From Pirellulaceae bacterium (GTDB lineage: Bacteria > Planctomycetota > Planctomycetia > Pirellulales > Pirellulaceae): a DNA stretch of 64,000 nucleotides. Position numbers and translations under genes: made by a program. The notes under the pieces are model-generated. The model was not told where the DNA came from. It ran no database searches and saw only the letters and a list, made by a program, of their open reading frames with translations. This document shows positions 12,114 to 17,718 of this stretch, in pieces. Numbering within the stretch: the stretch's first letter is position 1; each line of letters opens with the position of its first letter. The stretch covers positions 868,001 through 932,000 of the forward strand of contig JAGYIQ010000002.1 in NCBI GenBank assembly GCA_018402565.1, read 5' to 3'.

Positions 12114-12458
12114 ATGGCCCTCGACACCCCGTCCATTGAGTTGACGAAAAGCCCTGATGTCCAAGAATCGCACCCGACCACGAAAGTCGAGATGTGGCGA
12201 GAGCGGCTCGCTCGGTACGAAGCATCCGAACAGTCGGTTGCCGAATTTTGCCGATCTGTAAACTGTTCCGTGCCCTCATTTTACCAATGGCGGAGAAAGC
12301 TCCGGTTGGAGCAGACGTCGCCTGGCTTCCTCAGAGTCCAATCGTCGGTCGCATCCGCGGACACCAATCTCGAAATTCGCTTGCCCAGTGGGGTGTCGAT
12401 CTTCTTGCCGCTGCATGCCATTTGCTCGTTACCTAAGATCTTGGAGCAAGTGGCCTAA
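12114..12458 (+). CDS. tnpA: IS66 TnpA, helix-turn-helix accessory protein
   Basis: A 114-residue protein. Residues 27-65 (WRERLARYEASEQSVAEFC then PSFYQWRRKL) are the helix-turn-helix of IS66 Orf1/TnpA proteins (transposase 8-like). The C-terminal part has the usual LEIRLPSGVSIFLP strand pair. It is required with TnpB for efficient IS66 transposition. It lies 3 bp before tnpB. Confidence 0.88.
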   Translation: MALDTPSIELTKSPDVQESHPTTKVEMWRERLARYEASEQSVAEFCRSVNCSVPSFYQWRRKLRLEQTSPGFLRVQSSVASADTNLEIRLPSGVSIFLPLHAICSLPKILEQVA

Positions 12459-12461
12459 ACC

Positions 12462-12827
12462 ATGCTCGCTTTCAATCCGGCAATCAAGATCTATCTGCAT
12501 ACCGAACCCGTCGATGCTCGCAAAAGCTTCGACGGGCTCTTCGGCCTGATTAAGACTGACTTTGGCTTGGACCTGCGCAATGGGGGGCTGTTCATGTTCC
12601 TCAATAAGCGACGCAATCGAGTCAAGCTGATGTATTGGGACAGTGACGGAATCGCCATCTGGATGAAACGATTGGAGCGTGGCTGTTTCCAACGCCCACT
12701 GCGCTCACCTGACGGCAAGCATGTCATCATCGAAGCGACCGAACTCCACTCCATTTTATCCGGCATTGAACTGAGTAGCATCAAGCGAAGAGTGCGCTAC
12801 CAGTCACCGCTAGTCGGCTCGACCTAG
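12462..12827 (+). CDS. tnpB: IS66 TnpB (Orf2 family)
   Basis: A 121-residue protein with the conserved IS66 Orf2 opening KIYLHTEPVDARKSFDGL and the block GLFMFLNKRRNRVKLMYWD followed by WMKRLERGCF. It is the usual full length, with no frameshift. It works with TnpA and TnpC; its precise biochemical role is not established. Confidence 0.93.
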   Translation: MLAFNPAIKIYLHTEPVDARKSFDGLFGLIKTDFGLDLRNGGLFMFLNKRRNRVKLMYWDSDGIAIWMKRLERGCFQRPLRSPDGKHVIIEATELHSILSGIELSSIKRRVRYQSPLVGST

Positions 12828-12918
12828 CGTTGGGTTATACTAGATCAGGAAATATGGCTTTATTTTTCCGATCTAGAAGAAACACCTCTTGCGCTGGTGT
12901 ACCGTTTGCAGTAAAACA

Positions 12919-14673
12919 ATGATCATGAGTACCGCACGCGAACTGCCGAACGACCTCAGTACCGCACACCAAGTCATATTGACGATGAGTGAGATGCTGA
13001 CGCAACATCGTGAAGAGTTGGCAGCCATGAAGCAAGCATTGGCGGAACTGGAGCGCGAGTGCCATGCGCTGAAGTCGAGCAAGCGTCGAGAGAAGTTCAT
13101 CAATCCAGATCAAAGGCTACTTCCTTTCGGCGATCAAGCGGCAGTTTTGGCACAACTCGAGACCGCACGGAAGGCGGCCGAGGCTGAAGTCCAACGCATC
13201 ACTTATGATCGCAAAAAGCCACCTAAGGATCACAAGAAGCCGGCCAACACTTTTCCTGCATGCTTACCACGCGAGGTGATTGAAGTTGCTATACCGCAAG
13301 CGTATCAACTACGGATTGACTCCGGTGAGCTGATCGTTAAGCGATATGAGATCAGTGAAGCACTGAAGACGATCCCCGCAAAACTGGTGGTTCTACAGTA
13401 TAACAAGCCGATATTGGCCTATGCCGCGAATCTGGAGCGTGAGTTGCCGGTTGACGGCGAGGCAAATCTGGGTGAGAAGGGGCGATACCATCCCTCGACT
13501 GGCGCGGCGGTTGTGTATGGCAAGTTCGCCCAGCACTTGCCTTTCTATCGCTTGCAAGACATGTTTGCGGCAGCGGGCTGGACACCGACTCGTTCAACCT
13601 TGGAGTACCTGACGACTTTGGTTGAAGACGCGACCAGTGACATTCTGGCAATCATGCGTCAACGGCTGTTGAAGGCTTACTGCATTGGTGTGGACGACAC
13701 CGGCGTCAAACTGATCATGCCCAAGGAGATGCCGAAGCTGACAACGAGAACGCAGGACCTGCGGCAGCAACGCTTGGTGGAGAAGATGCAAGAGGCATAC
13801 GATCAAGACAAGGGATCGATCAACGCCAAGATGTGGGGCTACACGAGCTTCGATGCAACAGCACCCTATGATATGTTCGACTTCCGCGTGTCGCGGCACC
13901 GAGATGGCCCGGAAGAGTTTTTGGCGGGCTATGCGGGGCACGTGATGGCTGATTGTTATTCTGGCAATATGAGTGTGATTCTAGCGCCCGGATCAAAAAT
14001 GATCCGTCTGGCGTGCTGGGCTCATGCGCGCCGTCATATATACGAGAACCAGAGTCACGATCCTGTTGCCGCTGCGTATCCGTTGGCGTTGATGCAGCAA
14101 CTCTATGATATTGAACGGCGTACCAGCCAATGGTCGGCCGATGCACGCAAGGACTTGCGTAACAAGGAATCCCGACCGATTCTGGACCGCCTCAAGGCCT
14201 GGCTGGATGGGCCGATTCCGGACAGCATTCTGCCGGCGAGCAAACTGAGTGGTGCCTTCAACTACTTGCGCAATCATTGGGAAGCATTATGTGAATTCGC
14301 CCGGGACGGCCAACTGCCGATCGACAACAATCAATGTGAACGCCTGATGCGTCTGTTGGCAACCGGGCGAAAGAACTGGCTGTTCATGGGCAGCGTGAAG
14401 GCAGCCCAGCGGAACGCCAACTTAATGAGCCTGGTAGCCAGTGCCCACCGGCAAGATTTAGATATCGCGGCGTATCTAGAAAGTGTGATCACTCATCAGC
14501 TCCGGGGGACTGCCTCGGCCGCCGATTGCTTACCAGACGTCTGGAAGACCCACCATCCGGAGGCAGTACGCACGTACCGGGTCGAGGAGCGACGCTACAA
14601 GGCGGACACGGCCAAACTGCGATCAGCCAAGCGTAAGTGCGAAAGTCGCTCCAAGCAGCAAGCTGAGGCCTAA
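12919..14673 (+). CDS. tnpC: IS66 TnpC transposase
   Basis: A 584-residue protein from the ATG at 12919 (an ATG at 12925 or an upstream codon at 12889 are alternatives). The N-terminal coiled coil includes EELAAMKQALAELEREC. The zinc-finger-like region typical of IS66 is present, then the DDE-type catalytic core with YCIGVDDTGVKL, ADCYSGN and the ending LMRLLATGRKNWLFMGS. There are no internal stops, so the element may be competent. The last 25 residues are basic. Confidence 0.93.
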   Translation: MIMSTARELPNDLSTAHQVILTMSEMLTQHREELAAMKQALAELERECHALKSSKRREKFINPDQRLLPFGDQAAVLAQLETARKAAEAEVQRITYDRKKPPKDHKKPANTFPACLPREVIEVAIPQAYQLRIDSGELIVKRYEISEALKTIPAKLVVLQYNKPILAYAANLERELPVDGEANLGEKGRYHPSTGAAVVYGKFAQHLPFYRLQDMFAAAGWTPTRSTLEYLTTLVEDATSDILAIMRQRLLKAYCIGVDDTGVKLIMPKEMPKLTTRTQDLRQQRLVEKMQEAYDQDKGSINAKMWGYTSFDATAPYDMFDFRVSRHRDGPEEFLAGYAGHVMADCYSGNMSVILAPGSKMIRLACWAHARRHIYENQSHDPVAAAYPLALMQQLYDIERRTSQWSADARKDLRNKESRPILDRLKAWLDGPIPDSILPASKLSGAFNYLRNHWEALCEFARDGQLPIDNNQCERLMRLLATGRKNWLFMGSVKAAQRNANLMSLVASAHRQDLDIAAYLESVITHQLRGTASAADCLPDVWKTHHPEAVRTYRVEERRYKADTAKLRSAKRKCESRSKQQAEA

Positions 14674-15159
14674 TCACGACCGAGTCCAGCCAACCGGTCG
14701 TGTACGCTTACCACGCTGGTCAAAGTCCGAAACGCGCGGGTGAAGGCGCTTTGATCGGCGTAGCCGCAATGGTGAGCGATATCGACAATCGACAGCGTTG
14801 ATTCTCTCAGGAGCAATGACGCTGCTGCCACCCGAGTCTTGGCCAACAACTGCGATGGAGTTAGAGAAAACAGCCGCTTCGTCAATCGCCCCAGACGATT
14901 GGAAGACAGCCCGGATCGCTGGGCCAAGATCGCGGGCGAAAACGGTTGCGATAAGTCGGTTTCAAACTCAGCGATCGCTCGCGCAAACCCCAATGGGGTC
15001 TCTTCGGTGCCCACCGGCGCCCGCAAATCTCGGGAAAAGCCAATCAGCCCGATGACTTGGCCCTGCTCATCTTTCAGTGGCAGTTTGGATGTCAAACTGA
15101 TAGGAAATTTGATTTCGGGGCCGAGCTGCAAGTGTACCAGGGCAAATGCTCAAGTCAAT

Positions 15160-15209
15160 GGTTTCGAGTGCTGAAAGGCGGACGCGCCCGCCTTTCAGCA
15201 CTCGAAACC
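15160..15209. repeat. Perfect 22-bp hairpin beside the IS91-type transposase
   Basis: Arms 15160-15181 and 15188-15209 are exact reverse complements (core GAGTGCTGAAAGGCGG) with a 6-nt loop. It lies downstream of the 3' end of the transposase, where IS91-type elements have their replication-origin end. CAAG at 15151-15154, a known IS91-type target tetranucleotide, sits just outside it. Confidence 0.75.
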
Positions 15210-15341
15210 CAGGCCGTTTCTAGAGGTGGCGCGCCGATTCGAGGCCTCTTGGAGTGCAACTGGCGTGTCGCTGCAGGCAAAATGCGCCTCGAGCCGACCG
15301 AAGGTGTGCAGCTTCCTCGTGCCGACCCGGGTCGGGGAAAA

Positions 15342-16776
15342 TTAGTAGTTCTCCAGGAAGTTGTCGATGTCGACGTACGTCAACTCCTGAGACTCGTCGG
15401 CTTCGTTGGGTGCATCGAGTGCGTTGCCGCAGTAGGCGGGGTCCAGCTCGAGCACCAATTCATGCACCTCAGGTGGCGCTCGCGGTGACCGAGATTCCCA
15501 CAAACCGCAGCGCGTGAGGATCGCTTCGATCACGGCGGTTTGCGGCGGTTCGATGAACGACACCACCTTCATCTGGCCGCCACACTCGGGACAACACAAC
15601 GGGTCGACTTCGTAGATTCCTTTGATCAACATCGCCCAGGTTTGGCTGCTGCGCTGCGGCTTCTTCATGGGGTGGGTCGGCCGGAGCCCCGGCGGATGCT
15701 ACCGCAGCCGCCTTCTTCCGCATGCCACGCGACTTGTTCGAGTACCAGCCATAGTACCGAATCAGGTGCGAACCCTTGGCTGGAATAGGTTGCGTAAACT
15801 CCGCCAGGAAATCGAGTGGCTCGAGGATCTGAAAGTTGCGCGGCACTCCCGCCCGCATTCCGTCTCCTTTCGGATCGGGAAAGGCTCGGCAAGCCTGCTT
15901 CTCGGACTGATAGATGACTTGTCCCGTGTCGCTGACCTTCACCAGCCGCGACAAACTAAATGGGCAACGTGTCATGTACTGGATCAGACGCTCGATGCCC
16001 GCTTGATCGCCAGCCGGCAGGAACACCGACGGATCGACGCTGAAACCGCTATGTTCCCAAGTTCGCATGTTCTCGACCACTGCCGGCTCGATCTTCTCCT
16101 CAGCCAGGTACAGCTCGAAGACCGCATCCTGCCAGGCGACGAGCAGTCGCTGTATCTCGAACTCGGGCAGCTTTAGAAACTCGCCCTCGGGCGTCCAGGC
16201 GCCGCAAGTGATCAGCACATGCATGTGGGGATGCCAGTGCAAGAGGTGGCCGTGCGTCTGTATCGCAGCGATCATGCCGGGTACGACATCGTCGCGCCCC
16301 AGCAGCCGTCGAGCTTCCGACTTCAGACACCCCCAGGCACAAGAGGAGAGTTTCCCCAGCAACTGGCGATCGAACCGCGTGTGAATTCGCAAACGTTTGG
16401 GGATCGTCAACACGACTTGCCGATGAGCGACGGGAGAGCAGACTTCTTCAGCCACATGCAGCGAGGTCAGCAACGTCCGCTTCTGGTGGCAGGACGGGCA
16501 AGTGCAGCGTTGCTTGCAGGAGAAGGCGACGAACATCTCATGTTTGCAATCGGGGCAGCGAACTCGGGCAAAGCCTTCTTGCAGATCACCGCACTTGAGA
16601 AAGGCAGACACCGACTGCTCGACGATTGGCCTCCAGTAACCGTACTTCTCCTGAAAACGCTCGTCATAGACCTGCTGGAAGGAGTCAAAATGTTGATCGA
16701 TCAGTCGCCACAGGTCGGAGGCCTGGGGATCGCGTGGATGGTAGAGCGGTCGGGGCTCGACACAGGCGGTGACCAT
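15342..16776 (-). pseudogene. IS91-family transposase, frameshifted
   Basis: From the ATG at 16776 the minus frame encodes an IS91-type rolling-circle transposase: an N-terminal zinc-binding region (VRCPDCKHEMFVAFSCKQR, then CTCPSCHQKR), the HLLHWHPHMHVLI box and the YYGWYSNKSRG tyrosine segment near 15740. The frame then runs into a meaningless Ala/Pro/Arg-rich tail that stops at 15469. The true C-terminal zinc domain (WAMLIKGIYEVDPLCCPEC) continues in another frame from about 15690 to the stop at 15342. One indel near 15680-15725, perhaps in a CCACCCC run, explains this. Programmed frameshifting is not usual for IS91, so I call it inactive. Confidence 0.85.
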
Positions 16777-16984
16777 GGCAGAAACCGTAGTGTGTACATG
16801 TGAACACACATTCAATATGACGGCATAGAGAACATCTGTACACCGGTCGTCAAGCCGACACCTGTTTCCCTGGACGGAACTGCCAGCGGGCACAGCGGGT
16901 GAGTGTGGAAAACCTGTTGGTCGGTGGCCACCTCGATCCAAAGATCAAGACCCTCTGACACCCCTTCCCAGGAAAATCAGCAAT

Positions 16985-17151: not shown

Positions 17152-17260
17152 CCGACAATCCTCCCGTTCGACGACCCCACCACGCCAACGACCCAAACCA
17201 CGCAACCCAACCCGACTGAGCCAAAGCCCCACCCTGGGGCGAAACAAGTTGCCGCGCACA

Positions 17261-17295
17261 AAAAAACCCGCTCGGCCCCAAATGGGACCGGCGGG
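17261..17295 (-). terminator. Rho-independent terminator of the HMA lipoprotein gene
   Basis: On the minus strand CCCGCCGGTCCC / GGGGCCGAGCGGG forms a GC-rich stem with an ATTT loop, followed by a run of seven T (17260-17266 region). It lies 31 bp after the TAA at 17326. A related sequence near 8565-8600 shows that this segment was duplicated together with the PQQ leader. Confidence 0.75.
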
Positions 17296-17325
17296 CTTGG
17301 GCATGCTGGAGAACGAACCCGACCG

Positions 17326-17718
17326 TTATTCGGCGACCGAATAACCAGCCAAGTGGGTGTTGGTTTTGGCAAACTCTACCAACTGGGAGCTGTAATCGAC
17401 ATCCGTGGAAACGCGGAAGCTGCACTTCCGGGCCTGGATATCGGTTTCGATATCGGTGGCAGTCTCAATCTTGGTCAAATCGCGTCGGACCGACGCGGCG
17501 CAACCGCCTCACGTCATGTTGGGGACGTTGAGCGAGACCAGCACCAACTTCGAGGGATCAGTCGCCGGGGCAGCATCAGTTGCCTCCGAGGTCTTGGGAG
17601 CCTCCGGGGTCGAGCCACCGGCAGGCGGAGTGGTAGGGGCCGAACCCCCACCGGAATCGCACCCGATCAGGGCGCACGAGAGGCTGATCGCAATCAGCCA
17701 AGCAGTCAAATTTTTCAT
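17326..17718 (-). CDS. Candidate selenocysteine-containing HMA-domain lipoprotein (in-frame TGA at codon 70)
   Basis: The ATG at 17718 is preceded by AGGAGA. Residues 1-20 (MKNLTAWLIAISLSCALIGC) are a lipoprotein signal with lipobox, followed by a Pro/Thr/Ala-rich linker. Residues 57-130 match a heavy-metal-associated (HMA) fold: KLVLVSLNVPNMT, then codon 70 = TGA, then GGCAASVRRDLTKIE and later strands to a TAA at 17326. In HMA domains the residue after MT is the first Cys of CxxC, so TGA replaces a metal- or redox-active Cys, giving U-G-G-C. A SECIS-like hairpin follows at the right distance. If TGA is a stop, the product is a 69-residue stub with an intact but untranslated reading frame behind it. 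Translated length with Sec: 130. Conditional on selABCD elsewhere in the genome. Confidence 0.6.
17481..17497 (-). promoter_or_regulatory. Putative bacterial SECIS hairpin
   Basis: The RNA CGCGUCG-GUC-CGACGCG is a perfect 7-bp stem with a 3-nt loop starting with G. It begins 11 nt after the in-frame UGA (17509-17511), placing the loop 18 nt away. Bacterial SECIS elements lie just 3' of the UGA, with a small apical loop containing an early G at about 16-37 nt. GC-rich sequence can form such stems by chance. Confidence 0.45.

Follow-up and report, generated by a model that had tools for sequence, protein, structure and literature searches.

The gene described here lies on the minus strand of the window, i.e., the whole stretch of 64,000 nucleotides of Pirellulaceae DNA that was analysed, and its features are collected in Table 1. 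Read with TGA as U, it gives a protein of 130 residues (MKNLTAWLIAISLSCALIGC...NMT-U-GGCAASVRRDL...GYSVAE), and a Shine-Dalgarno-like AGGAG stands close 5' of its ATG. An earlier note on this DNA had placed the gene at the correct coordinates, its strand being left unstated, and had claimed that a TGA at codon 70, at the position of the first Cys of the metal motif, is the only interruption of the frame. Direct reading bears this out: 60 residues follow up to the TAA and, as the note had also proposed, they continue an HMA domain, according to both the frame and the Pfam PF00403 match. A terminator had been announced after the TAA, and folding indeed gives a U-tailed hairpin there (-27.7 kcal/mol, z -5.05); a terminator consensus scan reported none, probably because of a bulged A. 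The neighbouring stretch (12114-16941) carries an IS66-type transposase set (12114-14673) and, on the minus strand, an apparently disrupted IS91/ISCR-like transposase (15469-16941), both identified by eye. The gene content, which includes proteins of the PEP-CTERM and DUF1559 types, points to a planctomycete.

Table 1. Features of the candidate selenoprotein gene and its surroundings, in window coordinates.
Feature	Position	Strand	Details and basis
Whole gene	17326..17718	-	130 codons, UGA read as predicted Sec at codon 70, TAA stop
Lipoprotein signal sequence	17659..17718	-	Lipobox ALIGC, predicted lipidated Cys20 (17661-17659); direct reading and homologues
Low-complexity linker	17548..17658	-	Gly/Ser/Thr/Pro/Ala, residues 21-57; sequence and low model confidence
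HMA domain	17329..17547	-	Residues 58-130, beta-alpha-beta-beta-alpha-beta; Pfam PF00403, AlphaFold2, Foldseek
In-frame UGA (predicted Sec70)	17509..17511	-	First Cys of MxCxxC; reading and homologue alignment
Cys73	17500..17502	-	Second residue of U-x-x-C, invariant; alignment
Candidate bacterial SECIS hairpin	17481..17497	-	7-bp stem, GUC loop 17490-17488; folding and comparison
Terminator-like hairpin with U tract	17258..17298	-	Folding

The signal peptide and its lipobox Cys, which can be read directly in the sequence and agree with the exported lipoprotein of the earlier note, predict that the window protein is a bacterial lipoprotein, and many of the stand-alone homologues retain a hydrophobic stretch with a GC lipobox at its end. 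The Gly/Ser/Thr/Pro/Ala linker that follows (around 37 residues) is probably disordered, judging from the AlphaFold2 model, whose block pLDDT is 55-58 over residues 21-50. The remainder is recognised as an HMA domain (34.5 bits for a cut-off of 24.8) and modelled with a block pLDDT of 83-94 across residues 61-120, with beta strands at 58-64, 88-93 and 98-104 and alpha helices at 71-82 and 109-119. The top Foldseek match is MerP (1osd; E 5.8e-5, TM by target 0.78), with Atx1 and copper ATPase domains next in rank. In the alignment, the MxCxxC motif takes the form MxUxxC, with Met68 and Cys73 invariant and either Sec or Cys at position 70. Another residue, Cys99, at the start of strand 3, is present in many but not all members (it is missing in the Sec members L031, L037-L039, L073, and L079) and is thus not an essential third ligand.

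The homologue search covered 397 genomes of the same order and returned 45 matches in 36 genomes. Exactly one internal stop, always a TGA, was found in 35 of these 45 matches, and none of the 45 contains an internal TAA or TAG. In all of the 34 TGA matches that were read, the TGA falls at the first Cys of MxCxxC. This form occurs in 25 genomes belonging to at least six families of the order, and also in a genome of the same class that belongs to another family, outside the order (G707). Three true relatives carry a Cys at this position (L029 in G352, L042 in G262, and L044 in G221). At this codon, UGA replaces the Cys of the Cys homologues, with conservation on both flanks; the N-terminal signal and linker are weakly conserved and the HMA part is conserved. 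Over the 60 codons downstream of the TGA, the window gene and that of its congener G330 differ by 24 synonymous and 18 non-synonymous changes, i.e., a dN/dS of 0.13, compared with 0.26 upstream of the TGA, and other close pairs give downstream values of 0.03-0.5. In a decaying tail, a dN/dS near 1 is expected. As judged from these substitutions, the codons past the TGA are under purifying selection. The tree of this short domain is poorly resolved at many forks and gives no timing for the changes between Sec and Cys.

These results bear on the alternative put forward in the earlier note, namely a nonsense mutation of TGC to TGA, the rest of the gene being a decaying pseudogene. The frame is otherwise that of an ordinary HMA lipoprotein, and one base separates TGA from TGC. 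However, the close relatives have TGA at codon 70 and not TGC, the same TGA recurs in all the genomes counted above, inside and outside the order, the downstream part is conserved by selection, and the hairpin described below covaries. We consider that these observations refute a nonsense mutation, whose probability has become practically nil.

Past the UGA lies the hairpin CGCGUCG-GUC-CGACGCG, and the earlier note had described it accurately: the 17 nt form a perfect palindrome, which starts 11 nt past the UGA, and its 3-nt loop, with G in first position, starts 18 nt past the UGA. The bSECIS model (PMC13188914) specifies an apical loop of 3-9 nt with a G in its first two positions, a stem of 4-16 bp, a spacing of 16-37 nt, and an MFE of at most -7.5 kcal/mol. 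With its 7 bp, its GUC loop, its spacing of 18 nt, and its MFE of -9.8 kcal/mol, the hairpin of the window gene fits this model, in agreement with the SECIS-like element first suspected. It resembles the E. coli fdhF-type SECIS in being located just past the UGA and in presenting a small GU-containing apical loop at 16-37 nt; on the contrary, its stem is a simple perfect one of 7 bp, closed by a GUC triloop, with no bulged U. Among the 1858 TGA triplets of the window, 0.3% are followed 16-24 nt downstream by a fully paired stem of 7 bp or more whose triloop starts with G, and a GU or GG loop combined with -9.8 kcal/mol is attained after 0.8%. Taken alone, the hairpin is therefore suggestive of a SECIS, and its significance comes from its conservation among relatives. 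In single-sequence folding, the 40-50 nt past the UGA do not stand out clearly from shuffles in stability (z around -1), so that the SECIS claim rests on comparison.

This comparison was made on 24 distinct relatives, in which paired cells reach 85% in the register of the hairpin versus 33-44% in slid registers, and in which 15 cells are changed on both sides versus 3.6 in shuffles. The pair 18-28 is the most telling one, being seen as CG, UA, GC, and AU: column 18 is the third, synonymous position of an Ala codon, where C, G, or T stands according to the codon at column 28, respectively GGC (Gly), CGC (Arg), or AGC (Ser). The hairpin shows compensatory changes, synonymous Ala bases tracking the Gly/Arg/Ser change in the opposite arm. 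Under synonymous-codon resampling, 173 pairs were observed versus 110 expected (sd 6.8), a contrast inflated by relatedness, and the test on single genes gave P values of at best about 0.003-0.03, related sequences not being independent. None of the three Cys forms retains the hairpin, 1-2 of the 7 pairs being left. In the genus g27 and in G298, it is found in a different register (e.g., G298 has an 8-bp GUC hairpin at a distance of 23 nt) or does not reach the limit of -7.5 kcal/mol set by the model. The hairpin alone is also weaker than this limit in some other relatives (e.g., L032, L036, L040, L041, L045, L074-L077, and L079-L081).

The genome possesses all four components whose search had been suggested in the earlier note: SelA (553.7 bits), a full SelB (352 bits joined), SelD (187 bits, Cys form), and the tRNA-Sec encoded by selC (70.6 bits), to which ARAGORN assigns the anticodon tca. 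The SelD sequence (L049, G000 C158:47364-48149) is fused to a preceding NAD(P)/FAD oxidoreductase-like part within a frame of 820 residues and carries the Cys motif CLGCGSK. With a presence threshold of E < 1e-100, SelA was detected in 21 of the 25 genomes with the TGA form and in 87 of the 372 others (Fisher P 1.3e-9, without correction for kinship). A second SelA-like group, with E values of about 1e-61 to 1e-94 (e.g., G015, G079, G221, and G262), stands apart from the true SelA. In each of the four TGA-form genomes devoid of SelA, a full-length SelB scores above the cut-off, and a tRNA-Sec occurs in two of the four; hence, with SelA or else SelB as the sign, Sec machinery is detected in 25/25 of the TGA-form genomes. 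Two of the Cys-form genomes, G221 and G262, have neither a SelB above the cut-off nor a tRNA-Sec. The third, G352, has the Cys form despite a complete Sec machinery, which indicates that Sec is not essential to the function of the fold. FdhA of the source genome, checked as another selenoprotein, contains no internal TGA, so that no second selenoprotein is known for this genome.

The UGA could also be decoded as Trp or another amino acid, because of a reassigned code or of a leaky stop, and a single TGA read in this way would likewise give an open frame. However, TGA terminates 16 of the 32 long ORFs of the window and is thus an ordinary stop there, which led us to reject a code reassignment. 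Moreover, the TGA is always located at the Cys position, where true relatives have a Cys, and the TGA form co-occurs with SelA, SelB, and tRNA-Sec. We hold decoding as an amino acid other than Sec to be exceedingly improbable.

Taken together, the lipoprotein signal, the HMA fold, the conserved UGA, the covarying SECIS, the Sec machinery, and the purifying selection lead us to predict, with high confidence, that the product of the gene is an HMA-domain lipoprotein anchored in the envelope and containing selenocysteine. Following established biology, SelB on the SECIS would deliver Sec-tRNA(UCA) at UGA70, and the pre-lipoprotein would be exported, lipidated on Cys20, and displayed on its flexible linker. 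In the absence of selenium, translation would yield a lipopeptide of 69 residues devoid of the HMA domain; expression would therefore be selenium-gated. One might go further and see in the UGA a regulatory stop that depends on selenium: the cell would make mainly the 69-residue lipopeptide, with its complete lipoprotein signal and linker, and would add the HMA part at high selenium only. This seems very unlikely: the signal and linker are poorly conserved compared with the HMA domain, as the two dN/dS values of the congener pair illustrate, and in the fusion proteins presented below, YceI or helical N-terminal domains take the place of the linker.

Selenocysteine is rare and is used mostly in redox enzymes. 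As to the role of the selenoprotein predicted here, the HMA fold argues for metal and the general habit of selenoproteins argues for redox chemistry. From the fold and the motif, we lean towards a high-affinity two-coordinate soft-metal site formed by Sec70 and Cys73, which would bind Cu(I), Hg(II), or Ag(I) as in MerP or Atx1. Sec would raise the metal affinity and keep the ligand deprotonated outside the cytoplasm, and the window protein would serve as a metal scavenger or carrier. A possible but less probable reading is that U-x-x-C is here a redox centre (selenol/selenenyl-sulfide), and the protein a periplasmic reductant or reductase built on an HMA scaffold. The majority of the catalogued prokaryotic selenoproteins are regarded as redox enzymes with UxxC or CxxU (PMC13188914), Cys99 could resolve a selenenyl-sulfide in the many members that have it, and the YceI fusions of several genomes do not indicate metal transport. 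On the other hand, the domain is an HMA and not a thioredoxin-like one, the nearest solved structures being MerP, Atx1, and copper ATPase domains, and Cys99 is missing in the several Sec members cited above. No conserved neighbour of the stand-alone form, and hence no reductase, emerged from the all-against-all comparison of the flanking ORFs at 33 loci; without a conserved operon partner, no neighbour gene points to a metal system either, or decides the function.

Within the order, a YceI domain is fused to the Sec-HMA in L072, L074, L079, L080, and L081 (PF04264, 107.9 bits for the L072 protein), and a charged helical domain with an LTDDQK-like motif takes this place in L073, L075, L076, L077, and L078, proteins in which Pfam recognises the HMA part alone. 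In a profile search of the phylum, followed by reading of the matches, further exported HMA proteins carry the TGA in their motif, as MT-U-GGC (G731 and G553), MT-U-ASC (G772, beside a Cys paralogue), or MG-U-SSC (G519), and others show a U-x-x-x-C spacing (G423, G461 with two Sec, G590, and G442). SelA is present in all of these eight genomes, as well as in G707. The exported Sec-HMA proteins L183, L186, L188, and L189 have one extra residue in their motif (e.g., MTUGVGC, MTUGAGC, MTUAVGC, and MQUGGAC), and L188 contains two such domains, MTUGAGC and MTUGSSC. At L185 of G772, on the minus strand, the Cys-form and Sec-form HMA genes adjoin, with their motifs about 560 bases apart, making a natural Sec/Cys pair. 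A scan of genome contigs with the alignment returned solely Cys-type HMA of other phyla, since the Sec column was back-translated as Cys codons, and is uninformative on Sec forms elsewhere. We tentatively propose, at somewhat less than even confidence, a phylum-wide Planctomycetota family of exported selenium-based metal binders, comprising stand-alone lipoproteins, YceI fusions, tandem two-Sec proteins, and UxxxC forms, which might together handle Cu(I), Hg(II), or a similar soft metal in the envelope in a selenium-dependent way.

The presence of Sec in HMA-type proteins is already predicted, by NF041115, NF045683, a UxxC P-type ATPase, and MerP sequences from ocean metagenomes. NF041115, the UxxU metal-binding (seleno)protein catalogued as a putative mercuric reductase (ref. 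60 of PMC13188914), resembles the window protein in its HMA-type metal-binding domain, whose metal motif contains Sec. However, both Cys are Sec there, whereas the window protein has one Sec, retains the Cys of the second position, and is a lipoprotein whose close relatives were all found within the same order and class; it scores 18.6 bits against this model, for a cut-off of 95. NF045683, a MerT/CopZ fusion-like heavy metal transport selenoprotein, also has a CopZ/HMA-like domain, but it is fused to a MerT membrane part that is absent from the window protein (22.1 bits for a cut-off of 375). MerP (TIGR02052; PDB 1osd and 1afi) is the best structural match and, similarly, an exported single HMA domain; it differs by its Cys-x-x-Cys, by its score (26.9 bits for a cut-off of 92.55), and by the mer operon, no mer gene having been noticed near the window gene in the list of ORFs at 10-26 kb. 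PMC2398784 also lists two MerP sequences with Sec, from ocean metagenomes. The Sec cation-transporting P-type ATPase (TIGR01525, ABB15669.1; PMC13188914) likewise has UxxC in a metal transporter but, from its catalogue description, is a multi-domain membrane pump and not a stand-alone lipoprotein. The HMA lipoprotein is not among the 119 selenoprotein families and subfamilies of this 2026 catalogue, a paper that nowhere uses the words planctomycete or HMA. We found no description of a Sec-HMA lipoprotein family, and an HMA entry is possible among the planctomycete P1/P2 selenoprotein candidates (PMC4807772). What is new here is the planctomycete lipoprotein family, the YceI fusions, the two-Sec proteins, and the UxxxC spacing, the latter also being absent from the catalogue.

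As gene callers stop at TGA, genes of the Sec-HMA family are probably cut short or overlooked when planctomycete genomes are annotated. The conservation of Sec at the metal-ligand position of an exported chaperone-like domain raises the question of why selenium is worth its cost. The UGA/Cys pairs (G352, G221, and G262 versus the rest), together with the Sec/Cys tandem of G772, offer natural comparisons in which metal affinity can be set against redox chemistry.
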